DNA of 26,236 bases, taken from IMG/VR virus record IMGVR_UViG_3300040801_004232, positions 1 through 26,236 of that record. One strand, 5' to 3'. The notes beneath the pieces are model-generated. The model saw nothing but the letters and a program-made list of their open reading frames with translations. It did not search any database and had not been told where the DNA came from. Shown here in pieces: positions 1-26,236 of this stretch. How positions within the stretch are numbered: position 1 is the first letter of the stretch; each line of letters opens with the position of its first letter. The position numbers and the translations under genes were made by a program. Origin of the DNA: a virus.

Positions 1-48
1 CCCTCAAAATCGATTACACGTTTTTCTGCACAGGGAGTGCAGCACTTT

Positions 49-69
49 GTACTAACAATGTACTAACAA
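49..69. repeat. GTACTAACAA direct pair, 11-bp period
   Basis: GTACTAACAA occurs at 49-58 and 60-69, one helical turn apart, just after the odd palindrome GTGCAGCAC (37-45). The same pair with the same spacing occurs inverted at 25824-25844. Single copies are at 302-311, 9753-9761 (last base changed) and 25577-25586. The spacing suits a protein binding two sites on one DNA face, like an operator or a replication iteron. The protein is unknown. Confidence 0.6.
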
Positions 70-161
70 AACCCTACTATCTGGCCCCATCATCACCCAA
101 GCGGGGTAGTGTCCCTCCTAGGAGATGGGGAGGGGGAGCGATGATGCAAGCAGGGAGTGGT

Positions 162-216
162 GTGACGGGACTGATCTGTATTACCTATATATAGGTTTTG
201 TGACGGATTCCGATCA
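162..216. promoter_or_regulatory. Operator-promoter-like core, left copy
   Basis: Two motifs of the form GTGACGG-N4/5-GATC lie at 162-177 and 200-216, in the same orientation, on either side of the perfect 12-bp palindrome CCTATATATAGG (184-195). The second motif contains the small dyad CGGATTCCG. This 33-bp core (184-216) is the best conserved part of the module and recurs at 9633-9665, 25674-25706 and 25932-25964. A palindromic TATA block between paired binding sites suggests a regulated, perhaps bidirectional, promoter. A replication-initiator site is an alternative. Function is inferred only. Confidence 0.5.
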
Positions 217-372
217 GGGTTTAGCTCCCTCCCCGACTGGGTTCTGGGCGACGAACCCCCAAAAATCGATTACACGTCGTTCTGTTCGGGGTTGCGGTAC
301 ATTGTTAGTACAAAGTGCTGCACTAAGTCCTCCTATCCTCCCACCCAAAACCCCAAGGCGGCCCATATAATC

Positions 373-380
373 GGAAGGAG
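373..380 (+). promoter_or_regulatory. Ribosome-binding site GGAAGGAG of the giant gene
   Basis: GGAAGGAG is a strong Shine-Dalgarno match, but it sits 16 nt before ATG 397, longer than usual. It is the best site near the start of this frame. The alternative ATG at 481 (protein beginning MDLFGGG) has no good site in front. TATAAT at 365-370 is too close to the ribosome site to be its promoter. Confidence 0.5.
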
Positions 381-396
381 TCCCCCATAGATCGCC

Positions 397-3300
397 ATGC
401 TCCCCTTCTACGTCCCCCTTTGCCGTCCCCCTAAAGCCCGCCAAGACTCCATCGCCGCCCTCTACAAAGCGGCCTACCAGATGGATTTGTTCGGGGGTGG
501 TGCAGATGAGCCTGTGAAGGCAACCCCCAAGGCACGGCGTCGAGAGCGGCAGCAGAAACAGCAAACCCAGCAACTTGAGCTATTTTCAGGGTTCAAACCC
601 AAAGAGCCTAAGTCAACAGGGAAGAAGTCGAGGGAGCGATCGCCTAAAGGGGGGCGACACTATCGCAATACAAAGACAGGGCAAACCCAATTCTTCCCAG
701 GGGGGCGTTTCATCCCAAAAGAGTTTGAGCCAGCAACCTCAACACCTACTACTCCCCCATCGCCCACAACGGGACTAGAGTTGTTTGATTGGGGAGCCAA
801 GCAGTCTCCTAAACCTGTCAAGCGATCGCACCCCAAGACACCCGTAAAAACCGAGTTAACTCCTAAGTTAGAAACATCAACCCCCATCGAGTTAGAGCCT
901 AGTCCTAAAAAGGTGGAACCAAGAACTAAAAACGCAGGGAAAAAGGCTGATTACCAAGTAGCAAAAAACAGGAATGAGCGGATAGATATTAACAATAAAG
1001 CCAAGGAACTCCTAGCAAAAGAAAACCTAACAGACGACGATCGCCGCACTCTTGCCAAGTATTCAGGACGGGGTGGACTAAGGACAGAAGATGCCTCGAC
1101 AAGCGAGTATTACACCCGTTCAGACGTAGCCGAGTTTACCTGGGATATCCTCAAGCGTCATGGATTCAATGGTGGGGCCGTCCTGGAACCATCCTGTGGG
1201 GCGGGGGTGTTTCTTGGCACGGCTCCCGAGAATACGAAATGCGTTGGTGTCGAGATTTCCGATACCAGCGCGGCGATCGCCTCCAAGCTAAATCCCGATG
1301 CCGACATCATCGAGGGGCGCTTTGAACGGTTCGCGATCGACAATGAGACACAGTTTGAGGGCGTCGTCGGCAACGTTCCCTTTGGTTCCCGATGGACGGA
1401 TAGCGATTTCGAGGCCAACGCCTATAAGAAGAACCTACGCCGTGCTGAGGATGTCTTCGTCGCTGGTTCCCTCGACGCCCTAGCTCCTGAAGGGATGATG
1501 GCCATCATTGTTCCCCATGGCGTTGTCTCCGGGCGTAACCACAAGTCTCTACGGCGTGAGATTGTAAAACAGGGGCGGGTGTTAGGAGCCTACCGCCTCC
1601 CAGAAAGCACCTTCAAGCATTCGGGAACTTCCGTGGTGACGGACATCCTGGTTGTCCAGAAGCACCCAACAAAGGTACTGAACGCGATCGCCGCCAAAGA
1701 CAAAGACGCGATCGCCGCCACAAGCGACGACAGTTTCGTAGGCGGGGCTTACTTCGACAAGCACCCAAATCACATCGCCGGGGAAGTGGCCACCAAGAAC
1801 CGCTACGGTAAAGAGATGGAAACCGTGGTTGGGGACATCGACGCCAAAACCCTAGCAGGACTTCCTGAGTTCTCCCCAGTCGTTGACTACAGCGAGTTGG
1901 GCGATGAGGGGAAACCCGCCAAGCCCTTACTAACCGTGGGCGATTGCCGGTATATCAATGGCCGCCAGTATTGCCTCAACGAGAACCACCGCTGGGTACG
2001 AAATGACATCGAGGAGGATAGCGTTCCGGTGGATGGTGAGGCGTATGGCACGGATTCAGTTGAGGAGGCGATCGCGCGCCTAGAAGACATCGGCAAGCGG
2101 GTTGATATCCCCCATGAGAGCCTAGAGGCGTACCTAGCCCTAGCCCGTGCCGAGAATATCGGAGTGGTTGAAGGCCTAGTCGAAGCCAGCAAAGCCCTAG
2201 AGGGGAGTAACGGCGATCGCGCCAAACTCATCCACGCCATCCTCCTCGCCCATCACATCAAACACGTTGAGGGTGATCCTATTGAACTACAGCGGGCCCT
2301 AGAGTTGCTGCAATCGTACCGAGAGCGTCACGGGAACCCGGCGATCGACTCATCACTCACCAAGATTGCCTTGAGGTTCCCTTCCTTACTAGCTCTCCAG
2401 GGGGCATATCACGAAGATGGGGGCATTAGCGATCGCTTTGCAGATCCCGACAAAATGGAAGTCAAGGCGGGGCGTAAAATCTCCGAGAATATCGACGAGG
2501 CGGTTCGAGATGCCTTCCGTACCAACCTTGGCCCTGTCGAGTTGTCCGATATCCGCGATCGCCTACCCGAGCCACTGCACTCCCTCTCCGACTCAGATCT
2601 CAAGGCAACCATCCTAGGTGATGCTGGGGTGGGATACCATCGCGGCGCATTTCTTCCTATTGAGGATCTGTTGGTGGGGGATGCTTACGCCTTGGTTGAT
2701 GAGATGGCCCAGTATCGCGATGTTTCGGGTGAGGGTTCCCCTGAACGCCAAAAGTATGACGAGCAAATCGCCGAAGTGTACCGCCGCATCGAGCCGCGCA
2801 CTATCGATGATATGAAGATCCCTTTATGGGCAACCGGATCATGGCTCCCCGTCGAGGCGGTTAATGGGTTCCTCGAATCCTTGGGGTATGGACAGGTAGA
2901 ACGGAAATGGAACGGAGACTGGGATGCGATCGATGGGGGATACATTCCCGAAGATATCCTGACGACGATGAACCGGGGGACAATTAGCCATGGGATTAAC
3001 ACCAAAGAGGCTAAGGCGGCGATCGCGGGGGTTGAGGAAGACTTGAGGGATTGGTTAGCGGGTTCCGAGTGGCGCTCTGACGTAGAGGAGTCCTATAACG
3101 CCGCCTACAATGGCCGCCTATCTCGCACCTACTCGGGAGATCCCCTAGACATTGAATCCCTCAATCCGGCGATGTCGCCCCATGATTACCAATGGAGTGC
3201 AATCCGCGAGTTTGCCGACAAAGGGCGTGGCATTATGGCCCTTGATGTTGGACTGGGGAAAACTCCCACAGCCATCCTCCTATCCCAGCACCTACGAGAG

Positions 3301-6300
3301 CAAGGGCGCTGCAAGAAACCCTGCTTTGTTGTCCCCAAGTCCGTCCTTGCTAACTGGTTCTCCGAGGCGGGATTGTGGACGCCCGACATCAACATCTTAG
3401 TGGTGGGGCAAACCCAGCAATTCTGGGGCGATGGCTCTCCAGCGTGGGAGTTGCCAGGGTATGCTGTGCAGTTGCAGCGCGGTGTCCCCAAGCGAGACAA
3501 GGATGGGAAATATCTCTGCAAGCGAGACACGGACGGGGCTGTGGTTGCGATCGCCGAAAGCACCCTACATAAGAAAGGCAACCTCTACTTTAAGGATGAC
3601 TCCAAAGCGGATAAGGAACGCAAGTTGCAGCAGTTATCCCAAAATGCCTACGATATGGTGCTAATGTCAGAGCCTGTCTTCCAGTCAATCGAACTCGACG
3701 CCGATAAAGAGATTGAATACCTCGACGATATCGTTGGGCGACACGTCAAGAAAGGCGTCGCCAGCACCGATCGCGCCCGAGAGAAAGCACTCCAACGCCA
3801 AGAGGCCAAACAGGCAAGTCTCGCCAATCGCCGCCTCGACAAATCCAACAACATCACCTGGGAAGAATTAGGAATTGATGCCCTGTTTGCAGACGAGGCC
3901 CATCACCTCAAAAACCTATTCGCCCCTATGCGTCAACAGGGGACAGCGTTTATCTCCTCCTCCGAGTCCAAGCGATCGCTCGACTTCTACTACAAATCCC
4001 GACAGATCCGCGAAAACAACGACGGCGGCAATGTCTTCATGTTGACAGCCACCCCAACAGTCAATAACCCCCTTGAGGTGTTTAATATGATGCAGTTTGT
4101 GGCCCCAGAGGAGTTTGATCGCCGGGGAATAAGCAACGTTGATGACTTCCTAGAGATGTTTGGGCGCTTCGATACGGTATCGATGCCAGGGACAAACGGC
4201 GAACTTCAGGAGAAGACAGGGCTAACGGGGTTCAAGCATCTCAAGGACTTGCGCAAGCTATTCTTTGGATCTTGCCGATTGCAGAATGCCAAAGATGTCG
4301 GGCTTCCCATACCAGAGGAGATCACCCACAACGTTGAGGTAGAGATGACGCCTGAGCAGCAGCGCATTTACGCCACGTTACGCGATCGCGCTACCGCCCT
4401 ACAACATTCCAACGACAAAGAGAGTGAGTCGGATCACATCTTCTCCGTAATTTCCGATATGGACAAAGCGGCCACCTCCCTGAGTTGGTACGATGCCACC
4501 GCATCCGGGAACGCTGAGAAGGTGGGTGACTTGTCGGGGGTATCCTCGCCGAAGATCGAAGAATGCGCCCGCCTGGTTATGTCCTCAAAGTCCGCCAATG
4601 AGGGCAAGCAAATCATCTTTTGTGATGCTAACGAAGTCCATGACGACATTAAGGCCAAGCTAGTGAGTCAGGGATATCCGGCTGAGAAGATTGCGATCGT
4701 TAACGGGACAACGTGCAAGCGTTCGAGCGATCGCAAGAAAATCAGCGATCAATACAATAGTGGGCAAATCACCCTCGTTATTGGCAACACGGCCACAATG
4801 GGGGAAGGGGTGAACCTCCAGATCGGGACGACGGATATTCACCATATCAACACCCCATGGACTCCCAAGGATGAGACACAGCGAAACGGGCGCGGGGTGC
4901 GTCAGGGGAACAAACTCGACGAGGTTCAATGCCACTATTACCACGCTAAAGGCTCCTTTGACGGTTATCGCCAAGCCACGATCGCCCGTAAGCGCGGATG
5001 GATCAATGAACTCTGGAAGGGTTCAGAGGATGACGCCGACAACCAAGATACCGGGAAAATGTCTGGGGATGAAATGACGATCGCCCTGTCGGCAGATCCT
5101 GAGAAAGCCCGCCGCGAGTTAGAGTCAAACCGCCAATTACAAGAGCAGCGCCTCAAGCAGAAGAAGCGCAAAGACGCCCTATCCACATTCAAGCGACTAC
5201 AATCTGCCACCAAGGCCCTCGACGCCATCAAGGACAAAGAACCCGACAAGGCAAACCTACTTGGCACTACGGTTGATCGGATGCGGCGATCGTTGGCTGC
5301 CAATAGTGAGTTCACAGAGAAGGAATTACTAAGTTCTCCCCACAAGGCGATCGCCACCAAGGATGGGCTAATCACCTCGAATAGCTACATCAAGTATGCC
5401 GGGCGCTATTATCAGGTTCAGAGTGTCAACAGTGATAACACGGCCACTATTATGCAAGTGGGACTCCGTGTATCGCCTGACACTGTTAAGGCGAGTAAAC
5501 TCGCTCGTGAGTCTATTAGCATCAGCGATGGGGAGATGGTGGGTAAAAAGATTTCTGATTCTTTGACGATAAGCGATGTGTACAACAGGTTCACCCAAGG
5601 CGAGCGCAACAATAACCGCGATCGCATCCTCTCCGCAATCAGGGAAAACAACCCAGGGGCAAGCGTCCCAGTCCTCACTAAAGATGGGGAATTATCCGTT
5701 AAACCCTTACGGGATCTCGATAATACAGAGGGAATCATCTGGAACCCCGCACCCACGCCTGAGATGGATAAGGCGATCGTTCTCGCCTATGGGGATGCGG
5801 GGTTTGATGAACGGCAAGTTTTGGTGTCGCTCTACCGAGGCGCACACCCAGAGGAACACGCCGCAACGTCGAACTACGTCTTGGGCGACGAACTCAACAA
5901 AAAGTACGCCGCTGCCATACGAGAGCGTCGAGATGAGAAGCGATCGCACGCAAGAGCCACCACCGAAAGCGCCCCCACCCCTGCGAGCAAACCCCCAAGT
6001 CCTGCGGAAAACTGGAGTGCTAAAAAGCAGTTGCCCTTCATGCGTGGGGTGAAAGATATTGTCTTTGGCGGTGGGGAGCTAACCGATGAGCAAACCGACA
6101 CTGCGATCGCCCTGACGGACGCAATCTACAACGCGATCGCCCCTGAAATCCACGCCACAACAGATCTTAGCCGTCAGACAGAGCAGCGCCGATTGAAGGA
6201 AAGGGCCCAAACCGCAATCTACCAAAAGCAGTTCTTTAATATCCCAAACTTATTCCAACGCCGTCAAGAACTATTGGCTCGGGTTCTCGATATCGCCCGC

Positions 6301-6777
6301 GATCGCCAAGAGGCAATTGTCGGCAGGCCCCCCATCACTTCCTCATCTCCATCTTCAGATCGTCCAACCCTCAACCATAATAAAGAGAGGAACGGAATTG
6401 AGTTGAAATTCCCCGGCAAGCCTAGCGACGCGGTTCGGCAAAAACTCAAGGCAAATGGATTCCGCTGGAGCCGCAACCAGGGCGTATGGTATGCCAAGGA
6501 CAATGAGGCTCGATCGCGCTTCGCCGAAACCCTAGTAGAACCCCCACCGGAGTTAAGCAAAAATGCTCTACGATCGCCCCGAACTCGAAGCCCGCATCGC
6601 CGCCGCAAACGCCAACCACCCCGAGTACATCCGCAAAGCCGCGCGGGGGGTATCTACCTGGCTCCGGCAAAATCCCCAAGAGTGGCAGCGCTTCGGCCCG
6701 TGGTGGCCCAAGGTTCAGGAAATCCTTTTGAAGTATCACCCCGATCTGCCCATCCAGTATTGGAACCACGGCGATGA
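397..6777 (+). CDS. Giant DarB-like DNA adenine methyltransferase-helicase (SNF2 type)
   Basis: This 2126-codon protein combines an N6-adenine methyltransferase with a superfamily 2 (SNF2-like) helicase. Residues 1-180 look disordered and basic. Next comes the family signature LAKYSGRGGL, then methyltransferase motif I LEPSCGAG (263-270) and motif IV NVPF (326-329), a variant of NPPF. The helicase shows Walker A DVGLGKT (950-956), a DEAH box (1166-1169), motif III LTATPT and motif VI QRNGRGVRQG (from 1495). A small domain with KANGFRWSRNQGVWYAK lies near 2000-2045. This architecture matches phage P1 DarB and related plasmid and ICE proteins, which protect DNA from restriction; DarB is carried in the P1 head. 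The last 70 residues or so read out of frame over the next gene and look non-native. Start 397 is chosen for the upstream GGAAGGAG; 481 is an alternative. Domain calls are firm; the anti-restriction role is inference. Confidence 0.9.
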   Translation: MLPFYVPLCRPPKARQDSIAALYKAAYQMDLFGGGADEPVKATPKARRRERQQKQQTQQLELFSGFKPKEPKSTGKKSRERSPKGGRHYRNTKTGQTQFFPGGRFIPKEFEPATSTPTTPPSPTTGLELFDWGAKQSPKPVKRSHPKTPVKTELTPKLETSTPIELEPSPKKVEPRTKNAGKKADYQVAKNRNERIDINNKAKELLAKENLTDDDRRTLAKYSGRGGLRTEDASTSEYYTRSDVAEFTWDILKRHGFNGGAVLEPSCGAGVFLGTAPENTKCVGVEISDTSAAIASKLNPDADIIEGRFERFAIDNETQFEGVVGNVPFGSRWTDSDFEANAYKKNLRRAEDVFVAGSLDALAPEGMMAIIVPHGVVSGRNHKSLRREIVKQGRVLGAYRLPESTFKHSGTSVVTDILVVQKHPTKVLNAIAAKDKDAIAATSDDSFVGGAYFDKHPNHIAGEVATKNRYGKEMETVVGDIDAKTLAGLPEFSPVVDYSELGDEGKPAKPLLTVGDCRYINGRQYCLNENHRWVRNDIEEDSVPVDGEAYGTDSVEEAIARLEDIGKRVDIPHESLEAYLALARAENIGVVEGLVEASKALEGSNGDRAKLIHAILLAHHIKHVEGDPIELQRALELLQSYRERHGNPAIDSSLTKIALRFPSLLALQGAYHEDGGISDRFADPDKMEVKAGRKISENIDEAVRDAFRTNLGPVELSDIRDRLPEPLHSLSDSDLKATILGDAGVGYHRGAFLPIEDLLVGDAYALVDEMAQYRDVSGEGSPERQKYDEQIAEVYRRIEPRTIDDMKIPLWATGSWLPVEAVNGFLESLGYGQVERKWNGDWDAIDGGYIPEDILTTMNRGTISHGINTKEAKAAIAGVEEDLRDWLAGSEWRSDVEESYNAAYNGRLSRTYSGDPLDIESLNPAMSPHDYQWSAIREFADKGRGIMALDVGLGKTPTAILLSQHLREQGRCKKPCFVVPKSVLANWFSEAGLWTPDINILVVGQTQQFWGDGSPAWELPGYAVQLQRGVPKRDKDGKYLCKRDTDGAVVAIAESTLHKKGNLYFKDDSKADKERKLQQLSQNAYDMVLMSEPVFQSIELDADKEIEYLDDIVGRHVKKGVASTDRAREKALQRQEAKQASLANRRLDKSNNITWEELGIDALFADEAHHLKNLFAPMRQQGTAFISSSESKRSLDFYYKSRQIRENNDGGNVFMLTATPTVNNPLEVFNMMQFVAPEEFDRRGISNVDDFLEMFGRFDTVSMPGTNGELQEKTGLTGFKHLKDLRKLFFGSCRLQNAKDVGLPIPEEITHNVEVEMTPEQQRIYATLRDRATALQHSNDKESESDHIFSVISDMDKAATSLSWYDATASGNAEKVGDLSGVSSPKIEECARLVMSSKSANEGKQIIFCDANEVHDDIKAKLVSQGYPAEKIAIVNGTTCKRSSDRKKISDQYNSGQITLVIGNTATMGEGVNLQIGTTDIHHINTPWTPKDETQRNGRGVRQGNKLDEVQCHYYHAKGSFDGYRQATIARKRGWINELWKGSEDDADNQDTGKMSGDEMTIALSADPEKARRELESNRQLQEQRLKQKKRKDALSTFKRLQSATKALDAIKDKEPDKANLLGTTVDRMRRSLAANSEFTEKELLSSPHKAIATKDGLITSNSYIKYAGRYYQVQSVNSDNTATIMQVGLRVSPDTVKASKLARESISISDGEMVGKKISDSLTISDVYNRFTQGERNNNRDRILSAIRENNPGASVPVLTKDGELSVKPLRDLDNTEGIIWNPAPTPEMDKAIVLAYGDAGFDERQVLVSLYRGAHPEEHAATSNYVLGDELNKKYAAAIRERRDEKRSHARATTESAPTPASKPPSPAENWSAKKQLPFMRGVKDIVFGGGELTDEQTDTAIALTDAIYNAIAPEIHATTDLSRQTEQRRLKERAQTAIYQKQFFNIPNLFQRRQELLARVLDIARDRQEAIVGRPPITSSSPSSDRPTLNHNKERNGIELKFPGKPSDAVRQKLKANGFRWSRNQGVWYAKDNEARSRFAETLVEPPPELSKNALRSPRTRSPHRRRKRQPPRVHPQSRAGGIYLAPAKSPRVAALRPVVAQGSGNPFEVSPRSAHPVLEPRR

Positions 6778-8896: not shown

Positions 8897-9116
8897 AGCG
8901 GCGATTGAAGGGTGTTTGAGAGGATGCCAGCAGGATATAGCGCAAACCGCAGTCGATCTACAGAATCGGCTGCGGTTTGACGTGACATTGAGGGGGGAGT
9001 TTGTCGATACCCTCGTCTTGGAGTTCTGCTTATCTCGGGCTGTCTCCATGGTACGCGATCGCGCCCTAGAGAAACACGCCCTAGATGTTATCGAGACTCC
9101 AAATGGTGTGAACTAG
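8883..9116 (+). CDS. Small unknown protein, 77 aa
   Basis: The frame encodes a compact helical protein (MEDSIAAIEGCLRGCQQDIA, RFDVTLRGEFVDTLVLEFCL, VRDRALEKHALDVIE) with an amphipathic pattern expected of a real gene. ATG 8883 is preceded by GAGAG at a normal distance; a TTG three bases earlier is also possible. It lies between two minus-strand genes, overlapping the start of one by 14 nt and the end of the other by 36 nt. The family is unknown, and its size and location would suit a regulator or small anti-defence protein, without direct evidence. Confidence 0.5.
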   Translation: MEDSIAAIEGCLRGCQQDIAQTAVDLQNRLRFDVTLRGEFVDTLVLEFCLSRAVSMVRDRALEKHALDVIETPNGVN

Positions 9117-9482
9117 TCCAGTCTCCGGTGGGAAGACTAAAATCTGACTATTATTGATATCCGGGAATAGTTGCAGACAGCGCCCTTTAATGCGATCGCG
9201 CTTCAGGGTGGCGGTTAGGCGCTCGGTGTTGGAGACGGGGTAAATCTTGAGTTGGACGCGCTGAAGGTACTTCGAGTTGTCTGATTTTCCCTTCCTCGTG
9301 TTAACTACCACCTCCCACTTTCCGTCCCACGGAGCCAGTACAGGACTCTTGAGCCTCATCATAGGGGAGTCTTTGTCTTGGTAAACCCACCATGTTTGCC
9401 CATTACTCTGGTTGAATTGGGGATTATTGTCCAGTAGTGGAACCCATGCACGGGGGGTTAGATCGTTGATGATATATCGCAT
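9081..9482 (-). CDS. Unknown protein, 133 aa, minus strand, beta-rich
   Basis: I do not recognise this family. The sequence alternates hydrophobic and polar residues as in a beta-sheet domain, with many tryptophans (AWVPLLDNNPQF, QTWWVYQDKD, PWDGKWEVVVNTRKG, VQLKIYPVSNTERLTATL). The lysine/arginine content and the WEVVVN-type strand would fit a nucleic-acid- or ligand-binding small barrel, but no named fold is claimed. No good Shine-Dalgarno sequence precedes the ATG. Instead the start codon is the end of a 15-bp element (CAAGACAAGACAATG on this strand) that is repeated 329 bp away. It is divergent from the virion operon and shares its control region. Confidence 0.65.
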   Translation of the reverse strand: MRYIINDLTPRAWVPLLDNNPQFNQSNGQTWWVYQDKDSPMMRLKSPVLAPWDGKWEVVVNTRKGKSDNSKYLQRVQLKIYPVSNTERLTATLKRDRIKGRCLQLFPDINNSQILVFPPETGLVHTIWSLDNI

Positions 9483-9494
9483 TGTCTTGTCTTG
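9480..9494. repeat. 15-bp direct repeat, copy 1 (over the start codon of the minus-strand gene)
   Basis: CATTGTCTTGTCTTG occurs here and exactly again at 9809-9823. The identity stops at both edges. Together the two copies bracket the middle repeat module. They could be a target-site duplication, a duplicated leader, or chance helped by the low-complexity CTTGT pattern. Confidence 0.55.
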
Positions 9495-9632
9495 TTGATG
9501 GTTCGTAGTAGATGCACCCGTAGGCTTATTCTTCTAGGGCGCTACGGATTTAAAGTTAAATGTAGCACGGCAAGTAGGAGGGCGTCAACATCTTTCTTGG
9601 GAGTCGTGGGTGCGTGTCATGTTTGTTTACTA

Positions 9633-9761
9633 TCTATATATAGGTTTTGTGACGGATTCCGATCATGCCTTAGCCCTATCCCCGTATGGGTTCTGGGCGA
9701 CGATCGCCCAAAAAACGATTACACGTTTATCTGCGTCAGGATGCAGTACCTTGTACTAACA
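9633..9761. promoter_or_regulatory. Middle copy of the conserved module, between divergent genes
   Basis: The 33-bp core is present at 9633-9665 with one change in the palindrome (first C to T). The CGAT-centred block follows at 9696-9725 (changed to GACGATCGCCC, which creates a partial HIP1 site), and one GTACTAACA element is at 9753-9761. The upstream GTGACGG-N4-GATC motif is degenerate here. The copy is in the same orientation as the left one and lies about 220 bp before the virion operon. It sits between divergent genes, as expected for a control region. Confidence 0.6.
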
Positions 9762-9808
9762 TTGCAATATCTTTCGCGATCGCCTATATTGGTAGAGAGA
9801 GCCAGGCT

Positions 9809-9823
9809 CATTGTCTTGTCTTG
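9809..9823. repeat. 15-bp direct repeat, copy 2
   Basis: Second copy of CATTGTCTTGTCTTG. On the minus strand it also ends in ATG, but the reading frame behind it has only 30 codons and runs into the repeat module, so it is unlikely to be a gene. Confidence 0.55.
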
Positions 9824-9841
9824 CCTTTCTTTTAACTCCTC

Positions 9842-9876
9842 AATCCCCCTAGCGGCCCTGTGCCGTCAGGGGGATT
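9842..9876 (+). promoter_or_regulatory. Hairpin over the ribosome-binding region of the protease gene
   Basis: AATCCCCCT (9842-9850) pairs perfectly with AGGGGGATT (9868-9876), and an inner CGGC/GCCG stem closes on the loop CCTGT. The right arm ends 9 nt before ATG 9886 and contains the only purine-rich candidate ribosome site (AGGGGG). The stem could therefore hide the start of the virion operon until melted or bound. There is no T-run after it, so a terminator is less likely. Confidence 0.5.
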
Positions 9877-9885
9877 GTTGGTAAT

Positions 9886-11130
9886 ATGCAGAATTTCCAA
9901 TCACCCTCCACCCTTTTTAGACAACTTAATAAGACATCAGACGGATGGAAAGTCGGTGGCGTTGCCTCCGGTTTTTTTCGTGACTTAGATGGGGATGCGA
10001 TCGCACCCGAAGCCGTCCAAGACGCGATCGCCGGGTTCATGGCCCAGCGAACCAATGGGAAGGAAGGGGGAGCTATTCGCCTACACCATGACTTCTGGCA
10101 ACCGTTCCTGACGCGGGCGGTGCGATCGCTCCCAATGTCCGACGAGAAGCAAGAGAAGTTGATCGCCGCGATCGCCCTCCCCCTCGGGCGCGTCACCAAG
10201 ATGTGGGTAGAGCCAGACGGTACAACGCAATGGGAGGGCGTGTTTGCCAAGGCGAATCCAATCTCTGAAATTATTTGGAAATTACTAAAAGAAGATGCGA
10301 TATCACTGGGCGTTTCCCTGGGAGGGAAGATTTTTAGCACCCGGCCGGGGCGCGACGCGATCGGGCAACCCTGCAACGTCATTGATCACATCCGCCTCGA
10401 CGAACTCAGTATCACCGACAACCCGGCCTATCGCCTCACAAACGGCGAAGCTGATGGGGCCTCGGTGTTGGCACTAACCAAGGCGATTATGGATACCGGA
10501 ACCCTCGAAACCCCAAAACCTTTACCGGGCGCTGCGACAGCATTCAATAATGGCGACTCACAGGCAAAAGTGGGAATGTCGCGCCCCCTTGACGGCACTC
10601 CCACCTCGTTGAAACCCATGACGCCACAGGCTCAGGGAAAAATCCAGGCGGACGGCGATCAGTCTCCGACAGGGATTGGTGGGACTGCTAAAAACACCGC
10701 GCCGCCTAAAGGGAAAGGGAATATCCCATCAGACGATTGGGGAATTACCGTGTCTCAATTCACGAGGGACTTAGAGAAGTCTTGCTGCGAGATGAAGAAA
10801 AAAGGGGACGCCACCCCGGAGCGCCTTGAACACCTCAAGAAAGGGCTGATGGGGCTAACCGAGTTAACCCCAGAGCCTCCTGTTGCCCTTGTGAATTTCT
10901 GCCGGTTCCTCCAGCAAGTCGGCATGGCCATGGCGGAATTGCCCCACATGGACGACTACCAGGCGGGGGGGACGATCGCCGCGATTCAAGGTGATCTCAG
11001 GAAGGCCCTAGAAGACTTTGAGGAAAAAGTCCCCGAAGATCTCAAAGGAAAAACGTTTCGCCCCGAAGGAACCCCAGGGATTGATACCCCTCAAATAACC
11101 TTCCCGTCTCAATACGTAATGTACGATTAA
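9886..11130 (+). CDS. Prohead (capsid maturation) serine protease, 414 aa
   Basis: The first 200 residues match the phage prohead protease pattern: VASGFFRDLDGDAIAPEAV at the N-terminus, then RLHHDFWQP with a candidate catalytic histidine, LGVSLGG with a candidate catalytic serine, and DELSITDNPAY, which resembles the end of the XkdF/HK97 protease core. Residues 210-290 are a flexible Gly/Pro/Lys linker. The last 130 residues form a helical domain with two cysteines (EKSCCEMKKK) that may act in scaffolding, as fused protease-scaffold proteins do. It is the first gene of the virion operon and lies just before the scaffold-like and capsid genes, the usual order, but the portal and terminase normally found upstream are absent. 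The family call is good; the exact catalytic residues are inferred. Confidence 0.78.
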   Translation: MQNFQSPSTLFRQLNKTSDGWKVGGVASGFFRDLDGDAIAPEAVQDAIAGFMAQRTNGKEGGAIRLHHDFWQPFLTRAVRSLPMSDEKQEKLIAAIALPLGRVTKMWVEPDGTTQWEGVFAKANPISEIIWKLLKEDAISLGVSLGGKIFSTRPGRDAIGQPCNVIDHIRLDELSITDNPAYRLTNGEADGASVLALTKAIMDTGTLETPKPLPGAATAFNNGDSQAKVGMSRPLDGTPTSLKPMTPQAQGKIQADGDQSPTGIGGTAKNTAPPKGKGNIPSDDWGITVSQFTRDLEKSCCEMKKKGDATPERLEHLKKGLMGLTELTPEPPVALVNFCRFLQQVGMAMAELPHMDDYQAGGTIAAIQGDLRKALEDFEEKVPEDLKGKTFRPEGTPGIDTPQITFPSQYVMYD

Positions 11131-11135: not shown

Positions 11136-11960
11136 ATGAATCCCGAAGTATTGCAACAGCTTCAGCAACTCCTCACACAAGCCGTAACGATGCTGCAACA
11201 AGCGTCTGCCGCTACGGCTGCCCCCGGAGAAGGAATGCCGGGTGAGGAAGGAATGCCGCCAGAGGGTGGTGAAATGCCGCCGGGTGAAGGAATGCCCGGA
11301 GAGGAAGGAATGCCGCCAGAGGGTGGTGAGGGGGAATCCCCTATCCCGCCCAACGACGAGATGGATGACACAGATATGGGGAACAACGATATGAACGGAG
11401 GTAATGGCGGGTTAGATAACCGCATCCAGGAATTAGAGCGTCACACCGGGCTAAAGAAATCGGTGATCGCCGGTATGCCCGTTGTCGCCCGAGTAGATAA
11501 CCTAGAGCGTCACTGGCTTGGGGAATGTTATCAAGGCACGATCGCCCAACGTGTCGGACAACTTGAGGGTGTTGTGGCCCCAGAACGCCTGAAGAAATCC
11601 TCCAAGCAAGACTCCCCCTCCTCCGACGAGGTGGACGTTGACGAGATTATCGGGCGCACGGTGTCGAGCCAGTTGGAGGCGCTACTACCAAAACTCACCA
11701 AGTCGATCGCAAGAGAAATCCGCTCATCCGACTCTCAATCCCTCCCCGACATCAGCAAGATGCGCCAAAACCAAACCACGGGGCGGCGATCGCAGCCATC
11801 AGCACAAACCCCAGACGAGCGCCTAGCTAAAGCGGCCCAACAGATGGGGATGGACGATCAGGGGATGGACGAGCCATTGAGTCTTGGGGATTATCTCCAG
11901 GCTCAATACTTCGCTAACAAAGCGGGAATCGCCCTACCAGATCCTGACGCCGACGACTAA
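11136..11960 (+). CDS. Scaffold-like protein with Gly/Glu/Met/Pro repeat, 274 aa
   Basis: Position between protease and capsid, acidic composition and helical ends fit a capsid assembly scaffold. After a glutamine-rich helix (LQQLQQLLTQAVTMLQQ) comes a 19-residue tandem repeat beginning GEGMPGEEGMPPEGG (DNA period 57 bp from 11226). A segment NRIQELERHTGLKK and RVDNLERHWLGE..RVGQLE then shows spaced R-x-x-x-LE motifs of a style I associate with cyanobacterial proteins. The C-terminal 60 residues are acidic and helix-prone. Its sequence is too simple to name a family. A decoration or head-internal protein is possible instead. Confidence 0.6.
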   Translation: MNPEVLQQLQQLLTQAVTMLQQASAATAAPGEGMPGEEGMPPEGGEMPPGEGMPGEEGMPPEGGEGESPIPPNDEMDDTDMGNNDMNGGNGGLDNRIQELERHTGLKKSVIAGMPVVARVDNLERHWLGECYQGTIAQRVGQLEGVVAPERLKKSSKQDSPSSDEVDVDEIIGRTVSSQLEALLPKLTKSIAREIRSSDSQSLPDISKMRQNQTTGRRSQPSAQTPDERLAKAAQQMGMDDQGMDEPLSLGDYLQAQYFANKAGIALPDPDADD

Positions 11961-11988
11961 CCCTCTCTCACAAGTAGGAATAACAAAA

Positions 11989-13474: not shown

Positions 13475-14738
13475 TACTGTCTCTATTCCTAGATCCGATA
13501 ACTGGCCCATTCGCCGCCAACTCTGGCAATCAGGGGACAAACTCCCTGGGATGGAACAATCGTTATCAGAGGATTTGGGGCGTGAGCTATCGGTGCGCTG
13601 GGTACAGGATGACACCGACGAGGTGGTGTTCGAGTCATCTGATGCGATCGCCATCATCAATGCCGTCCTGGGGGTAGTCGAAATCATCCCGCCGCCCGAG
13701 TTGTGGCAGTCAGTGAGGCGCGATCGCCCCTACCGTGTCGAGGTGTGGGCCTATGGGAGTGAAGGTGATCGCTTTGGGTTCCATCAGTTCATGCCCGAAC
13801 CCCAATCAGTATCTCTCGATGGAGTGGCAGTGTATGCCTCCCCTAGTCAGGTGCTAGATGTCCTAGGAATGGTTCCGGGGGCGGACGTGATGACGGCGAT
13901 CGACATCAGCGAGGGGTGGGAGAGTAACGAGCTTGGGTATTGGGTTCGCCCCCTACCTGAGACGTTGCACGGAGTTTGGGTGGACAACCTTTATCTCTCT
14001 GAATATCCCTACTCGGAGCTTGGGGTGTGCGATCGCGGCTACGCCCGGCATGGTGGCACCCTCTATCTCAAGGGGCATGATCTGAGTTTATCCACCGTAG
14101 AGACGGCATACAGTGAGCGGGTGTTGAGGTTGTTGAATACAGCTACGGCTCAAATCGAGCGACAGACGGCGCGTTTCTTCAATCGCCGCCGGGTGATTCG
14201 AGAGACACACCGGGGGTTGAAGTCCCAAAAACAGATTTATGCCCGGCAAACCCCAATCGCCGTCGATGCCTTCTTTCGACTCGATGCCTTTTCATCACTA
14301 CGAACCTATCTGCGCTCCTATACCGAGCTATCAATCTCCCATCCCCAATATCGCAACCCCGCCGCTTCCCATGTCCATGTTGAGCATGAGACGGGATGTA
14401 TCACGATCGCCCACTCGTTCTGGGATGCCCCGATGGAGTTAGATCCCGGTGTGCTGGGGTGGACATCATACCTCCCACCGGGTGACAACAACATCGAGAT
14501 CACCTATACCGCCGGGGGGGAGATCCCCTACGAGATCACTGAGGCGGTGTCGTTACTGGCGGCGGTGTCGTTATCGCGATATTGGCAACAGTCAATCACC
14601 CAGGGAATGCAAGGAATCACCCTGGGATGCGTCTCCCTTAACTTTGGGGAGCTATTTAAGTCGTTCACCCCGGACTGGATATCTCGGGTGAATTGCATCG
14701 TCGCGGGACATCAACGAGTTTCTATCGAAGGATTCTAA
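13461..14738 (+). CDS. Head-tail connector/adaptor-like protein with long N-terminal domain, 425 aa
   Basis: The C-terminal half resembles phage head-tail connector (gp6-like) proteins: a helix with TATAQIERQTARFFNRR, beta strands around HVHVEHETGCITIAHSFW, NNIEITYTAGG, then ITEAVSLLAAVSLSRYWQQS and a Gly-rich ITLG turn. Typical gp6-like adaptors are about 100-200 residues, so the first 215 residues are an extra domain, beta-rich with many tryptophans (PPPELWQSVRRDRPYRVEVW, TLHGVWVDNLYLSEYPYSEL). No name is given for that domain; a head fibre or neck attachment is possible. It overlaps its upstream neighbour by 14 nt. The connector call rests on the C-terminal half and on position. Confidence 0.6.
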   Translation: MATIDTVSIPRSDNWPIRRQLWQSGDKLPGMEQSLSEDLGRELSVRWVQDDTDEVVFESSDAIAIINAVLGVVEIIPPPELWQSVRRDRPYRVEVWAYGSEGDRFGFHQFMPEPQSVSLDGVAVYASPSQVLDVLGMVPGADVMTAIDISEGWESNELGYWVRPLPETLHGVWVDNLYLSEYPYSELGVCDRGYARHGGTLYLKGHDLSLSTVETAYSERVLRLLNTATAQIERQTARFFNRRRVIRETHRGLKSQKQIYARQTPIAVDAFFRLDAFSSLRTYLRSYTELSISHPQYRNPAASHVHVEHETGCITIAHSFWDAPMELDPGVLGWTSYLPPGDNNIEITYTAGGEIPYEITEAVSLLAAVSLSRYWQQSITQGMQGITLGCVSLNFGELFKSFTPDWISRVNCIVAGHQRVSIEGF

Positions 14739-14740: not shown

Positions 14741-15481
14741 ATGGCATTAAACAAACAGACGGCAAACTTTCCACCCATCCACGCGCCGGAACAATCCTGG
14801 GAGCAATCCCTACGGGCCCTTGAAAATGTCCGGGGCCATCAAGGGATTGTGAACGGACTCAAAATGTCCATCCCCTCACCATCGGGACTGATGCCTGAGA
14901 TTGAAAATGGCAATCTCCTGATGGGCGATCGCGTCTATGGGATTCATGGCTCGCTTCTAGCTGAGCCGGCGATCGCCTCGTCCTCTAAGCTGTTCATCTT
15001 CGACTTGGCAGGGGCGCGTTACGAGGATGATCAACCCGTTGGTAGTGTGAAGATTGCAGAGGTTGCGGCGGATGCGACGGCGATCGCGGCGATCGGGCAA
15101 AACATTAACTACGGCGGGTTCCGCTACGGCATTAAGGGGGAAATCGATCTCGCTCATTGCGTCAAAGCAGCAGACACTCCCCTCGTCACCTTCACCAAGC
15201 CATCAGGAATGACAAATATCCGCGTCTCTCATGGGGAGGTGACTCTCATCGACGCTGTGACAGGTGGGGGTGCTGGGGATCTGGCGCGGCTCGTTTGTGA
15301 AGGCGATACGGTGGCTTCGCACGACATCAACGCTGCGGCCACGTTGGGGGCGGCAACAGTTTCTGACACTTCCTTGGTGTACCGAGGTGAGGAATCACTC
15401 CTGTTTAGCTACCACGCTATCGACGGCAACGCCGACTTGACGGGACGGGTTCGCTTCTCTGCTGAGATCACGGTTTACTAA
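14741..15481 (+). CDS. Unknown virion protein, 246 aa
   Basis: The start at 14741 has GAAGGA 8 nt upstream; the longer frame from 14693 lies inside the preceding gene. The protein begins MALNKQTANFPPIHAPEQSW with a short helix. It is then a beta-rich, alanine/glycine-rich sequence (GDRVYGIHGSLLAEPAIASS, NINYGGFRYGIKGEIDLAHC, GMTNIRVSHGEVTLIDAVTG) ending in a clear strand (GRVRFSAEITVY). This looks like a structural virion protein, perhaps a decoration, stabilising or fibre protein of the head or neck. No family is recognised. Confidence 0.65.
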   Translation: MALNKQTANFPPIHAPEQSWEQSLRALENVRGHQGIVNGLKMSIPSPSGLMPEIENGNLLMGDRVYGIHGSLLAEPAIASSSKLFIFDLAGARYEDDQPVGSVKIAEVAADATAIAAIGQNINYGGFRYGIKGEIDLAHCVKAADTPLVTFTKPSGMTNIRVSHGEVTLIDAVTGGGAGDLARLVCEGDTVASHDINAAATLGAATVSDTSLVYRGEESLLFSYHAIDGNADLTGRVRFSAEITVY

Positions 15482-17487: not shown

Positions 17488-17493
17488 TCCCCC

Positions 17494-17637: not shown

Positions 17638-17638
17638 T

Positions 17639-20512
17639 ATGGCAACTGGAGTAGTTCATGGCGGCGCATACCTACAACAGCCGGGGGCCTATAGCGTTGT
17701 CGATGCGTCAGGATTGGAGACTGCGCCCCCTATCGCTTGGGGGACTGTGCTGTGTTGTGGCCCCGCTCTCGGGGGAACCCCGAACCAGCCCTATGTTTTG
17801 AAAGATCCCTATCAAGCGGTGCGGCTGTTCGGCGCTGGGAGTCCCTTGTGCGACTTAGTTCGACTCACCTTCTCGGGTGGTGCTACCCAGGTTATGGCGA
17901 TTCGCAGCGATCGCGCCCATCGTGCCTCGGGAACTTTAACCCCCATTGGTGGTGGTGCATCCCTCAAGGGTGAGTTTAAGGATTACGGGGCCTATGGCAA
18001 CACCTATCGACTCACCTTTCGCCCTGGATCGATCGCGGGAACCATGGCCGTACTCGAAGGTAGTCGCATCGACGGTTCCCTCGATGAGCGCCAAATCGAC
18101 AACGAGCCGTCCCTATCTAATCTTGTACGGCGCATCAATGCCGAGTTCCCTATCAACCTCGACATTACCGCCGGTGGAGAACGGGCTACTGGGACTGTCA
18201 CCTTATCCACCTCACAAGTCGATGGGCGCGGGCAACTCAATGGCGAGCAGGGTGACATTATCTCTAACCAGGCGTACCTCTACCACTTTGCCGCAGCCGT
18301 AATGGCTGATTCGGCGCGATCGCTTGTCGCCAGCTTTGCCTCCCCCATCTCATTCGCGGCCACGGCGATCGCCACAGGAACGGGAGTCTTCACCGCGACG
18401 GGGCATACCTTTGTCGATGGGCAAACCGTCACCCTCACGGGCGTCACCCTACCAAACGAGACACCGGCGGGGGATTATGTCGTCGCCAATGCCGCTTCTA
18501 ACGCTTTAACCCTGGCCCCACGGATCACCTCGGGTGCGGCCAGTATCATTGAATCCCACGCGGCGGGGGTGTTCACCGCGACGGGACATGAACTCAGCGA
18601 CGGAATGGCGGTGCGCTTTTCGGGGGATCTCCTAGAGGGGATGGGACGCGATCGCGCCTATTTCGTCGTCTCATCCGATGCCAATACCTTTAGCGTGGCT
18701 CTCACTCACGGCGGCGCGGCGGTGACGAGTTTCACAGGAGATCTCGACTCCCTCTCCGTGTCTTCCTATTCCGATGCCCCACTAACGACGCTAACAGGGA
18801 CAATCGACACCGCACTCATCACCGCCAAATACTCGCGCGTTACCGTACAAGAATCAACCCCAACCTCACTCAATGGAGAGTACGCCGCAACCCAGACACG
18901 CGATCGCTTCACCCTCACCCCTACGTCGGTAACAGCGAGTAAGACTCAATACGGCTCGGACACCTCACGCCTTCGACTACCCGAGGGGGAGACTTGGAAT
19001 AATTCCACCTACCCGTCCTTGCCGGGTTCTGTCTTTACTATCAGCGGTGGTGACTATGCCGGGACGTACTGGATACTGGAGCATGAGTGGGACGGAGAGG
19101 ATAGCGATCGCACCCGTATCGTCCGCAAGCTCGACGGCGATCGCCAAATCGATAACGGCACCATCTCTGGGGCAGACTTTGAGTTTCGTGAGGCGGTGTT
19201 CCTATCGAAAGCGCCCCAACCTCCCACGACGGCGGTGACGACAAAGCTACCCAGTAACGGACTCCTTGCCAGTGGGGGGCATTATGTCACCCTGGTTGTA
19301 GGGGAACAGACGGTTTATCACGTCACCAGCCCCGGCGATACCATCGAAGGTGTCGGGAATGCGATCGCCGCCGCAATCAACGACGATCCTGAGTTGAACA
19401 AATTGGCCACCGCGAGCGTGTCCTACAATGCCGGGGCCTATCAATCCACTCTGTCATTGACGGCGATCGCACCGGGGATCTCCGCCAACACTACCGCCCT
19501 CCAAGTCCTCACCAACACCCAAGATACGCTCTCAGTCGCAACGTCTGGCAACACCTTCTCGGGTGGTGTCGATCCCCTGCCCCCATTGGATGCCAGTGGA
19601 CAAGTGGGTGGGACGCTCCAACTATCGGGAGGGTATGATTCGCTTCCCACTTACGGCGATTGGCTCGAAACCCTTGAGGTGGCCGCCAAAGTCAACTGTC
19701 GCTATCTCGTCCCCGCGACGGACAACCTTGGGGTGCAGGCGGCATTCTCGGAGCATTGCCGAGTGATGTCCTCAACACCTCAACGCCGGGAACGTATCGC
19801 TCTCTTTGGCCATCCATTAGGGTGGACGTACTCCGAGATCCGCGATCGCGCCGAATACTTCCAGTCTGAGCGGGCCGTATTCTGCTCGCCGGGGTTCCAG
19901 GCGTCCGACAACATCACTGGACTGGTGAAAGACTATCCCAGTTATTATCTGGCTGCGATCGTTGCCGGAATGCTCAATAGTGAGGGGAATGGGGTTAGTG
20001 ATCCGATCACCCACAGCTACGTCCCAGGCATTCTACGACTCCTAAAGGATTATGAACCAGGTTCTCACGAACTCGATTTAGCGATTGGTTCGGGGGTTCT
20101 CTGTGTTGAACGAGATCCTTCATTGACGCGCCAATCCCGTGGCTTCCGTATCGTTCGGGGTATCACAACCTATCGCGGCACTGGCTCCGGGATGCGATCG
20201 AACCAATACCAGTCAATCTCGGTTATCAACCAAGCAGACTATACAGCGGCAAGGATTCGCGACATGGAGGAAAGCCTGTTTGTGGGGCGGGGAATGCTCC
20301 CAGAAACCCTATCTCTGGTTGTCGAGAAAATCAACCTAGAACTTGATCTCATCTCACGGGAGGGAATCCTTTATGGGTTTCGTCCCTCTGCGACGCGGGC
20401 CACAATTTCGTCTCAGAGTGATAATGCCGTCGCTACGAGCTACATTGTGTATCCCTCCGCTGCGATGGAGTTCATCCTCAACACCCAACTACTTCTACCC
20501 ATCCCGAGGTAA
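17639..20512 (+). CDS. Contractile tail sheath protein, 957 aa, with inserted repeat domains
   Basis: The start (GVVHGGAYLQQPGAYSVVDA) and the ATQVMAIR strand match the N-terminal part of tail sheath proteins. The last 300 residues match the conserved sheath core: YYLAAIVAGMLNSEGNGVSD, LTRQSRGFRIVRGITTYRGT, SISVINQADYTAARIRDMEE and SYIVYPSAAMEFILNTQLLL. Sheath polymerises around the tail tube and contracts on infection. At 957 residues it is larger than many sheath proteins. The excess lies at roughly 240-620, including two related units that begin GVFTATGH at residues 249 and 310, resembling repeats found in tail surface proteins. Such insertions usually decorate the outer sheath surface. 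The sheath call is strong; the insertion's role is inference. Confidence 0.88.
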   Translation: MATGVVHGGAYLQQPGAYSVVDASGLETAPPIAWGTVLCCGPALGGTPNQPYVLKDPYQAVRLFGAGSPLCDLVRLTFSGGATQVMAIRSDRAHRASGTLTPIGGGASLKGEFKDYGAYGNTYRLTFRPGSIAGTMAVLEGSRIDGSLDERQIDNEPSLSNLVRRINAEFPINLDITAGGERATGTVTLSTSQVDGRGQLNGEQGDIISNQAYLYHFAAAVMADSARSLVASFASPISFAATAIATGTGVFTATGHTFVDGQTVTLTGVTLPNETPAGDYVVANAASNALTLAPRITSGAASIIESHAAGVFTATGHELSDGMAVRFSGDLLEGMGRDRAYFVVSSDANTFSVALTHGGAAVTSFTGDLDSLSVSSYSDAPLTTLTGTIDTALITAKYSRVTVQESTPTSLNGEYAATQTRDRFTLTPTSVTASKTQYGSDTSRLRLPEGETWNNSTYPSLPGSVFTISGGDYAGTYWILEHEWDGEDSDRTRIVRKLDGDRQIDNGTISGADFEFREAVFLSKAPQPPTTAVTTKLPSNGLLASGGHYVTLVVGEQTVYHVTSPGDTIEGVGNAIAAAINDDPELNKLATASVSYNAGAYQSTLSLTAIAPGISANTTALQVLTNTQDTLSVATSGNTFSGGVDPLPPLDASGQVGGTLQLSGGYDSLPTYGDWLETLEVAAKVNCRYLVPATDNLGVQAAFSEHCRVMSSTPQRRERIALFGHPLGWTYSEIRDRAEYFQSERAVFCSPGFQASDNITGLVKDYPSYYLAAIVAGMLNSEGNGVSDPITHSYVPGILRLLKDYEPGSHELDLAIGSGVLCVERDPSLTRQSRGFRIVRGITTYRGTGSGMRSNQYQSISVINQADYTAARIRDMEESLFVGRGMLPETLSLVVEKINLELDLISREGILYGFRPSATRATISSQSDNAVATSYIVYPSAAMEFILNTQLLLPIPR

Positions 20513-20517
20513 TAGCT

Positions 20518-24532: not shown

Positions 24533-24534
24533 CC

Positions 24535-25554
24535 ATGACAACCGTTCAACCTCAGAAGGAATTTAAGGCTAGAACTATCCCCATCTATAACCCCCTCATG
24601 GAGTTCTCGGATGCCCATCCGGGGGACACGCCACACCCAGGAGGCAAGGGGACGATCGCCATTAAGGCCCGCATCCTCTCCAAAACTGGGGACGTGGTGG
24701 TTGACTTTAATGAGCTTCAAGACTTGATTGGGTATCGCGACAGCTTAACAACAGAGGCTCCTAACGGCTCGTTCACTCTAACGATGCGGGCCCTAACTAG
24801 CAACTTCGAGCTACTGAAGAAAGTTCACCCCGGCATGGTTATCGAGGTTTATGCGGCCCGTAACGCCGATCCAATTATTGGCGCTCACCCTGATCCATCC
24901 CAGATCGAGCCAGGGTGGACGTACTTGGAGCCGCAAGAGGTAACAGTTCCGGCGGGGGGTTCTTCGACGGCGATCGCGGGATCCGTCGGCGGCGATCATA
25001 TTCCTACTGGGGAACAAGGGACGGTGGCAGCGATTGACGGAGGTAAACTTCTTGGTGCGCCTTACTACTCTCAACGGGATAATGCAATCAATCCTAGTGT
25101 GTCTTGCAATGCAACATCTATCGCTCAGGCGGCGGGATTTTATGGTATTCGCGCTCAGGGTTCTGGACAACTAGAAGATGAGTTTACGGCATGGATTCAA
25201 GAGAGAGGATTAGATCCCGGAGCGCCTGATACTCTTGTTCAGTTAGCGGCGGCTCATGGGATGCGATCGCGCTTCACTCCTAGTGCAGACTTTGATGAAA
25301 TTCGCGCTCATTTAGACTCAGGAAATCCCGTAGTTGTTCATGGATATTTTACGGGGCCAGGACATATCGTAACTGTCGTTGGTTACAACCAAAACGGCTT
25401 TATTGTTAACGATCCTTGGGGTGATTGGAAGTCAGGATATGGCGATACGAACGGAGAGAATGTCGTTTATCCTTACGACGATATGCAGGCCGTCCTCCAA
25501 CCCGAGGGGGCGGGGAACACCTACGCCCACTTCATGACTCGCTCCGGGGGGTGA
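24535..25554 (+). CDS. Baseplate-hub N-terminus joined to a C39-like peptidase, 339 aa
   Basis: Residues 1-115 resemble the start of a tail hub protein (XkdQ/gp27 type): VVDFNELQDLIGYRDSLTTE, GSFTLTMRALTSNFELLKKV, HPGMVIEVYAAR. After a linker, residues 173-330 form a papain-like C39-family peptidase with PYYSQRDNA, candidate catalytic Cys191 in SCNATSIAQ, His277 in GHIVTVVGYN and Asp293 in VNDPWGDW. The N-terminal glutamine in YYSQ could serve the oxyanion hole. Such C39 domains are common in cyanobacterial secreted proteins and could cut peptide crosslinks in the cell wall. The peptidase DNA (about 25055-25490) is more AT-rich than its surroundings, which suggests a transferred domain. The rest of a normal hub is missing. 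Domain calls are good; the job at the tail tip is inference. Confidence 0.75.
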   Translation: MTTVQPQKEFKARTIPIYNPLMEFSDAHPGDTPHPGGKGTIAIKARILSKTGDVVVDFNELQDLIGYRDSLTTEAPNGSFTLTMRALTSNFELLKKVHPGMVIEVYAARNADPIIGAHPDPSQIEPGWTYLEPQEVTVPAGGSSTAIAGSVGGDHIPTGEQGTVAAIDGGKLLGAPYYSQRDNAINPSVSCNATSIAQAAGFYGIRAQGSGQLEDEFTAWIQERGLDPGAPDTLVQLAAAHGMRSRFTPSADFDEIRAHLDSGNPVVVHGYFTGPGHIVTVVGYNQNGFIVNDPWGDWKSGYGDTNGENVVYPYDDMQAVLQPEGAGNTYAHFMTRSGG

Positions 25555-25673
25555 TGGATTGACGAAGTGCAGTACGTTGTTAGTACAAAGTGCTGCAACT
25601 TGATGCAGAAAAACGTGTAATCGATTTTTGGGGGTTCGTCGCCTACAACCTAGACAGGGAGGGAGCTAAGATA

Positions 25674-25728
25674 TGATCGGAATCCGTCACAAAACCTATA
25701 TATAGGTAAATAAGATCATGTCCGTCAC
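25674..25728. promoter_or_regulatory. Operator-promoter-like core, right copy 1
   Basis: The same arrangement as at 162-216 but inverted: GTGACGG-N5-GATC motif (25674-25690), CCTATATATAGG (25695-25706) and GTGACGG-N4-GATC motif (25713-25728), all read on the minus strand. Its 33-bp core is identical to the left core. Confidence 0.5.
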
Positions 25729-25931
25729 ACCACCCGCCTCACCCGCATCATCGCCACCCCACCCCATCTCCTAGGAGGGGCCACTACCCCGCTTGGGTGA
25801 TGATGGGGCCGGATAGCAGGGTTTTGTTAGTACGTTGTTAGTACAAAGTGCTGCACTCCGATGCAGAAAAACGTGTAATCGATTTTTGGGGGTTCGTCGC
25901 CTAGAACCCAGTCGGGGAGGGAGCTAAGATA

Positions 25932-25986
25932 TGATCGGAATCCGTCACAAAACCTATATATAGGTAATACAGATCATGCCCGTCAC
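25932..25986. promoter_or_regulatory. Operator-promoter-like core, right copy 2
   Basis: Third full paired-motif core, inverted: motifs at 25932-25948 and 25971-25986 with CCTATATATAGG at 25953-25964. Read to the right it is followed by ATG 25976 inside the second motif, but the frame behind it is doubtful. Confidence 0.5.
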
Positions 25987-25990
25987 CACC

Positions 25991-26236
25991 CACCTCACCC
26001 GCATCATCGCCACCCTTCCCATCTTCATGTGGAACTCATCCTCTCCCACTAGGGAATCAGGACAGGAGAGCCATATAGGGGCGCTGAGGCGACGAGATAG
26101 GGAAACCTACAGGAAGGGGAGGCAACCCACCCTCATCGCCCTCCTAGGCGGCGCTATTTACACCACGCTGATCAGCGTGATGTAGGCTTCCAGAACCCGT
26201 GAGGGAGTACCCCCCCCTAGGATGAGGGGGATAGAC
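25991..26236. other. Right flank without a supported gene
   Basis: Beyond the second module unit I see no supported coding sequence. The stretch holds the 26-bp palindrome, several CCTAGG sites and, at the very end, a C-run/G-run dyad (around 26210-26230) that may continue outside. A 69-codon frame from 25976 crosses it, with a hydrophobic end (LIALLGGAIYTTLISVM), but it begins inside the conserved operator-like motif without a ribosome site. Confidence 0.5.
26159..26184. promoter_or_regulatory. 26-bp near-perfect palindrome
   Basis: The core CACGCTGATCAGCGTG (26164-26179) is a perfect 16-bp palindrome. Extension to 26 bp has only one mismatched pair. It lies outside the module repeats and has no partner elsewhere in the window. 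A symmetric operator for a dimeric regulator, or a recombination or resolution site, are possible readings. No T-run follows, so a terminator is unlikely. Confidence 0.55.

Follow-up and report, generated by a model that had tools for sequence, protein, structure and literature searches.

A dispersed three-block intergenic cassette as a candidate late-operon control element of a cyanobacterial myovirus

To our knowledge, late-gene control is hardly known in cyanobacterial phages outside the marine T4-like group. Dispersed repeats of phages are already known, and include the stoperators of Cluster A mycobacteriophages, short elements of about 13 bp that mostly lie in the direction of transcription. 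All tested intergenic repeats of halovirus HF2 were found to be promoters (PMC8707807). The HF2 class I and class II repeats resemble the cassette described here in being multi-block and confined to the intergenic DNA of one tailed virus, and in including one divergent copy, which in HF2 has lost a block. They measure 58 and 29 bp, with archaeal TATA/BRE promoters inside the repeat (PMC8707807), whereas the cassette measures about 130 bp, spreads three blocks over more than ten helical turns, contains no recognised core promoter, belongs to a virus of a bacterial host, occurs in tandem pairs and appears to differ in sequence. The SAS/ESAS elements of Cluster K mycobacteriophages (PMC3203893) share with it inverted-repeat extensions, a position upstream of a subset of genes and a mostly uniform orientation, but they consist of 13 bp plus 17-bp inverted repeats and are present in many copies at the translation starts of single genes; the cassettes are few, large and placed about 80-120 bp upstream of operons. 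According to PMC9283540, Cluster A stoperators are likewise dispersed phage-wide and are binding sites, each being one asymmetric site at which a monomeric repressor stops elongation, whereas the cassette is a long composite at operon starts. The 17-bp palindromic repeats of Cluster O mycobacteriophages (PMC4351075) are also dyads spread over the genome, but there are more than 30 of them, many inside genes, and they have no composite structure. The cassette differs from these repeats in size, three-block rigidity, pairing and sequence. It had been claimed that no cyanophage element of this type has been described; none was found in limited literature and database searches, although repeats of the general kind occur in other viruses.

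The window (the whole stretch of DNA analysed) comprises the linear virus record IMGVR_UViG_3300040801_004232 (26,236 bp) and is a fragment of a larger genome. Five cassettes were located in its left, middle and right non-coding gaps, and the predicted conserved module, with the same block order in all three gaps, was thereby confirmed (whole-unit matches with E = 1e-30 to 1e-52; identity between units 78-95% over 125-190 bp). Unit W1 (about 1-85, + strand) is cut by the contig start and retains only blocks B (CGATTACACG) and C (AGTGCAGCACTTTGTACTAACAA), a second GTACTAACAA following 11 bp further on. Unit W2 (184-313, +) has block A at 184-215, block B at 267-276 and block C, with a reversed centre, at about 293-324. 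Unit W3 (9633-9762, +) carries A, B and C at the same spacing and lies in the divergent gap that precedes the operon of protease, capsid and tail genes. Units W4 (25577-25706) and W5 (25835-25964) are inverted (- strand); 22 bp separate W4 from the stop codon of a C39-peptidase gene, and 12 bp separate the arm of the dyad that flanks W4 from that codon; W5 carries a tandem GTACTAACAA. A sister contig, IMGVR_UViG_3300040801_003698, holds two further full units (14506-14635 and 14829-14958), a strongly diverged unit (about 34212-34343) and a unit truncated where the contig stops (34629-34743). Units are often paired, 256-258 bp apart in the window and 323 bp apart at 14.5-14.9 kb of the sister contig. 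The motif CCTATATATAGG was found four times with up to two mismatches (0.62 expected) and GTACTAACAA seven times with up to one mismatch (0.42 expected), and neither count was reached by any shuffle.

Alignment of all copies defined three conserved blocks. Block A reads (T/C)CTATATATAGGTTTTGTGACGGATTCCGATC, also given as CCTATATATAGGTTTTGTGACGGATTC, and in most copies its first 12 bases form a perfect palindrome (CCTATATATAGG), which is replaced by CCTGTACAGG in the diverged one. Block B reads CGATTACACG, or CGGTAACACG in the diverged copy. Block C, TGCAGYAC.TTGTACTAACAA, follows 26 bp after B and extends in some copies to an imperfect dyad, AGTGCAGCACTTTGT-ACTA-ACAACGTACTGCACT; in W2 the centre of block C is reversed (GTTAGTAC), in agreement with such an imperfect dyad or symmetric site. 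Counted from TTTTGTGACGG of block A, B lies at +71, TGCAG at +97 and TTGTACTAACA at +106. Block order and spacing are identical in all complete units of the window, and the 71/97/106 bp spacing is exact in seven copies, the contig-end copy being without C. The diverged copy (34224) has a spacing of 73/99/108 and a largely changed linker sequence. Spacing that is fixed despite a changed linker argues for function and not for recent copying alone.

The cassette is regarded as non-coding because the variable columns are not codon-phased (10, 9 and 11 across the three codon phases), and a coding repeat was rejected on this basis. A conserved small ORF was likewise rejected, the blastp match between window 9492-9884 and contig 14296-14718 being the module read in frame. 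A structured RNA or riboswitch was rejected as well: folding was no better than that of shuffled sequences on either strand (z +1.2 and -0.05), with no Rfam match.

The core of block A, CTATATATAG, is an NrdR-box core, identical to that of E. coli nrdAB box 1 (PMC12176259). NrdR requires two 16-bp palindromes 15-16 bp apart, upstream of ribonucleotide reductase genes (PMC12176259). Units acting as sites of a host regulator such as NrdR would agree with this core and with the ribonucleotide reductase encoded on the sister contig, but a second box at the required distance is missing from every unit (best 5-6 of 10), the reductase gene has no unit before it and the diverged copy carries CCTGTACAGG; this explanation was judged extremely improbable, and NrdR boxes were rejected.

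The exact 32 bases of block A were scanned against IMG/VR, where the sole match was the sister contig (34,743 bp). Patterns of 15-17 bases gave, outside the sister contig, only chance matches in IMG/VR and genome contigs. Searches of 50,697 phage records and 72,556 plasmids did not find the cassette, and 386 genomes of the phylum Cyanobacteriota gave only weak matches of 25-33 bp, in a search for which no positive control was possible. An interspersed cyanobacterial chromosomal repeat was rejected, since these 386 genomes held no copies beyond such short chance matches; scattered copies on unrelated chromosomes, named in the original prediction as evidence against it, were not seen in the collections searched. 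A CRISPR spacer route to the host was also rejected, the one 32-bp match lying outside any CRISPR array.

No genes are common to the window and the sister contig. Genes for capsid, connector, sheath, tape measure and C39 peptidase lie on the window; those for terminase, portal, a 1664-aa helicase and ribonucleotide reductase lie on the sister contig. The last 42 bases of the sister contig have 30 exact bases in common with the start of the window, including the variant CCCTCAAAATC, which is present in no other unit; the last 12 bases of the sister contig, past this overlap, differ from the window. When the two were joined at the overlap, a continuous alignment with the reverse complement of window 25548-26190 ran across the join. 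Their tetranucleotide profiles correlate with r = 0.974, compared with 0.96-0.97 between halves within each contig and at most 0.43 for 167 unrelated loci, and a 92.5-kb relative shows the order portal - helicase - DarB - protease - capsid - sheath, which is colinear with the two records joined. On the strength of the end overlap, the repeat alignment across the join, the tetranucleotide profile and the gene order in relatives, the two records are most likely pieces of one myovirus genome. We take the assembler to have broken this genome at the repeats; such repeats can split phage genomes in metagenome assemblies, and these two records may serve as an example. The palindrome HIP1 (GCGATCGC), known from cyanobacteria (PMC4390886), occurs 72 times in the window and 100 times in the sister contig (less than one expected), which points to a cyanobacterial host.

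Gaps were counted in the joined genome by using hand-checked gene calls, which gave four divergent, four convergent and eight codirectional gaps (at least 100 bp), 16 in total. Cassettes occupy three of the four divergent gaps and none of the convergent or codirectional ones, for which the chance probability, on hand calls and few gaps, is 4/560 = 0.007. The units in these three gaps face + operons, namely those of the portal (contig 15036 onwards), of the DarB-like N6-methyltransferase/helicase (window 397-6777, downstream of W1-W2) and of protease, capsid and tail. The last begins downstream of W3 with a gene at 9886-11130 (+), without a family match, to which a prohead-protease role is assigned from its position, and continues with the major capsid protein (11884-12969, +) and the tail sheath protein (17639-20512, +); the gene diverging from W3 (9081-9482, -) has no family match either. 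No unit lies in the divergent gap of the terminase operon (131 bp). Within the window, units are also missing where operons converge, at about 8.2 kb, and from the gaps between codirectional genes at 6.8, 17.5 and 21.7 kb. The statement that the cassette-bearing gaps are exactly the operon boundaries therefore holds for divergent boundaries and not for convergent or codirectional ones.

Functionless duplications, or a mobile repeat spread in intergenic DNA, would account for the high identity between copies, the tandem pairs and the lack of matches elsewhere. This origin is nevertheless very improbable: the repeat was not found on the searched chromosomes or plasmids, its gap type and direction are non-random, and the block spacing stayed fixed while the linkers of one copy diverged.

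In the three gaps, about 83, 123 and 77 bp separate the end of TTGTACTAACA from the start codon. The best -10-like hexamers in these stretches are TATAAT, TATATT and TAGAAT, and their summed score exceeds that of shuffles (p = 0.0008). In the window, TATAAT lies at 366-371 (+), between W2 and the DarB-like start at 397, and TATATT at 9785-9790 (+), between W3 and the gene start at 9886; both are consensus matches only. The units themselves contain neither a conserved -35 nor a full sigma-70 promoter. A shared helical phase of the distances from dyad to -10 was not detected (p = 0.53), and the geometry of class I/II activators (dyads at -41.5, -61.5 or -71.5) was rejected with this result, the observed distances being 40.5, 64.5 and 70.5.

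The right-hand pair W4-W5 (site 25566-25964) lies directly behind the gene of the C39-type peptidase domain protein (24535-25554, +), the last gene before it, and has the opposite orientation to the left and middle units. It points left, into the 3' end of this + gene, the only adjoining one, as the window ends before the next gene to the right; in three of the four long relatives described below the genes that follow the C39 gene likewise lie on the + strand, i.e. against the direction of W4-W5. With this orientation the pair cannot drive a neighbouring operon in the usual direction. The pair belongs to a stretch of about 640 bp that repeats, in inverted orientation, the block before the DarB gene. 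The right arm of this long inverted repeat spans 25548-26190 (-), and the left arm is composed of the sister contig from about 34397 plus window 31-345, so that inverted repeats of about 640 bp flank the whole window once the left end is joined. The outer edge of both repeat arms is marked by a long near-perfect palindrome (about AAATCACGCYGATCAGCGTGATTTA), which lies at 26160-26186 with a perfect 16-bp core, CACGCTGATCAGCGTG, and as a near-copy at 34408-34432 of the sister contig. The W4-W5 site may be a duplication, may mark where an invertible segment ends or may act in both directions.

These flanking repeats, the assembly breaks that coincide with them and the 92-95% identity of copies in different surroundings would also be expected if the units were recombination sites or a rearrangement hot spot, at which the 25-kb capsid-tail segment, flanked by inverted pairs, may invert and the duplications arose by homologous recombination. 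Recent copying alone leaves the spacing kept in the strongly diverged copy unexplained, however; no recombinase was recognised among the genes tested, and the middle unit W3 is single and lies outside any inverted pair. Recombination as the role of the units was thus considered distinctly unlikely.

The capsid protein finds relatives at 70-75% identity, four of which are long (G390, G391, G395 and G396; 76-93 kb). A portal homologue is present in three of these four (53-57%) and a homologue of the 1664-aa helicase in two of the three; the cassette is absent from all four. The sequence of the closest relative, L257 (4.7 kb; capsid protein 75% identical), begins within the protease gene and so does not reach the orthologous gap. 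The comparable gaps of the relatives contain repeated elements that differ from the cassette and are shorter. The sequence CATATTTACTCTACCATGGCATATTTGCAATA precedes the portal gene in the three portal-holding relatives, and G390 and G391 carry it once more at another place. The sequence TCGTATTGTCAACACTTTTCGATA adjoins the protease gene in two relatives and is found elsewhere at one to five places per genome. On its reverse strand a TATCG/CGATA dyad encloses TTGACA, and TTGACA-N17-TACAAT can be read there by eye towards the divergent small gene; the dispersed TCGTATTGTCAACACTTTTCGATA dyads, in two to five places per genome, are likely to be operator-promoters of this phage group. Different repeats in comparable gaps indicate an intergenic operator/promoter layout that is common to the lineage and differs in sequence, which fits control elements with exchangeable specificity. 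A cassette common to several virion operons, with other repeats in the relatives, suggests exchangeable specificities like those of immunity groups. Examples of TCGTATTGTCAACACTTTTCGATA in G396 are at 26058-26081, 14252-14275 and 75625-75648. HIP1, present at 72 per 26 kb in the window, occurs 143-174 times in the four long relatives and not at all in L257; such a density may reflect a long stay in HIP1-rich hosts or adaptation to them.

A replication or packaging signal had been offered as the alternative to control, and it explains the operon-directed orientation less well. Replication or partition sites, i.e. dispersed origins or centromere-like sequences to which a phage initiator or a ParB-like protein binds, could take the form of large composite palindromic units with tandem copies at several intergenic places; the helical-turn tandem (11 bp) of GTACTAACAA in W1 and W5 would suit them, and the odd orientation of W4-W5 would be irrelevant. 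The constant orientation into virion and late operons and the similar distances to start codons in three gaps would be unexpected, however, no ParB or initiator was found among the genes tested, and the relatives are without such sites and have promoter-like elements instead. We regard this alternative as unlikely.

The cassette is probably a cis-acting element for transcription control of late operons, private to one cyanobacterial myovirus lineage and bound by a phage regulator. This reading is favoured by the fixed geometry, the dyad end blocks, the placement and orientation, the downstream -10-like hexamers and the different elements of the relatives. A dedicated control cassette for separate operons had been postulated; it is the reading best supported by geometry and placement, the exception being W4-W5, which point against the sole adjoining gene. 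A phage-encoded, possibly host-assisted, regulator would bind the dyads and set several virion and late operons on or off together, by activation or repression. It would act from upstream on a sigma-70-type promoter, the -10 of which would follow block C and precede the start codon. None of the genes tested on either contig was recognised as encoding a regulator, and the cassette provides a concrete DNA target for fishing out the regulator. A bolder and rather doubtful elaboration is that the rigid A-71-B-26-C arrangement would be an assembly site for a multi-protein, enhancer-like complex, often in tandem, that switches late operons in either direction, with the inverted copies also letting the 25-kb segment invert; such an architecture is not known to have been described in cyanophages.

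Further observations concern the genes of the two records. DarB of phage P1 is an antirestriction protein; the DarB-like product immediately behind the left units of the window is a methyltransferase-helicase fusion of 2126 aa. The sister contig IMGVR_UViG_3300040801_003698 encodes a CobO/BtuR-type protein and a ribonucleotide reductase (L018 2420-3625 and L019 10617-14114), the former with two matches to the ATP:corrinoid adenosyltransferase (CobO/BtuR) domain, the latter with family homology that is broken by a long, intein-like insertion. The pairing of these two genes suggests that the phage may supply the cofactor to its own cobalamin-dependent reductase. A virion structural protein (L018 4562-6382, -) has a match to the catalytic domain of alpha-L-arabinofuranosidase B and is possibly a sheath- or wall-degrading protein or a receptor-binding protein.
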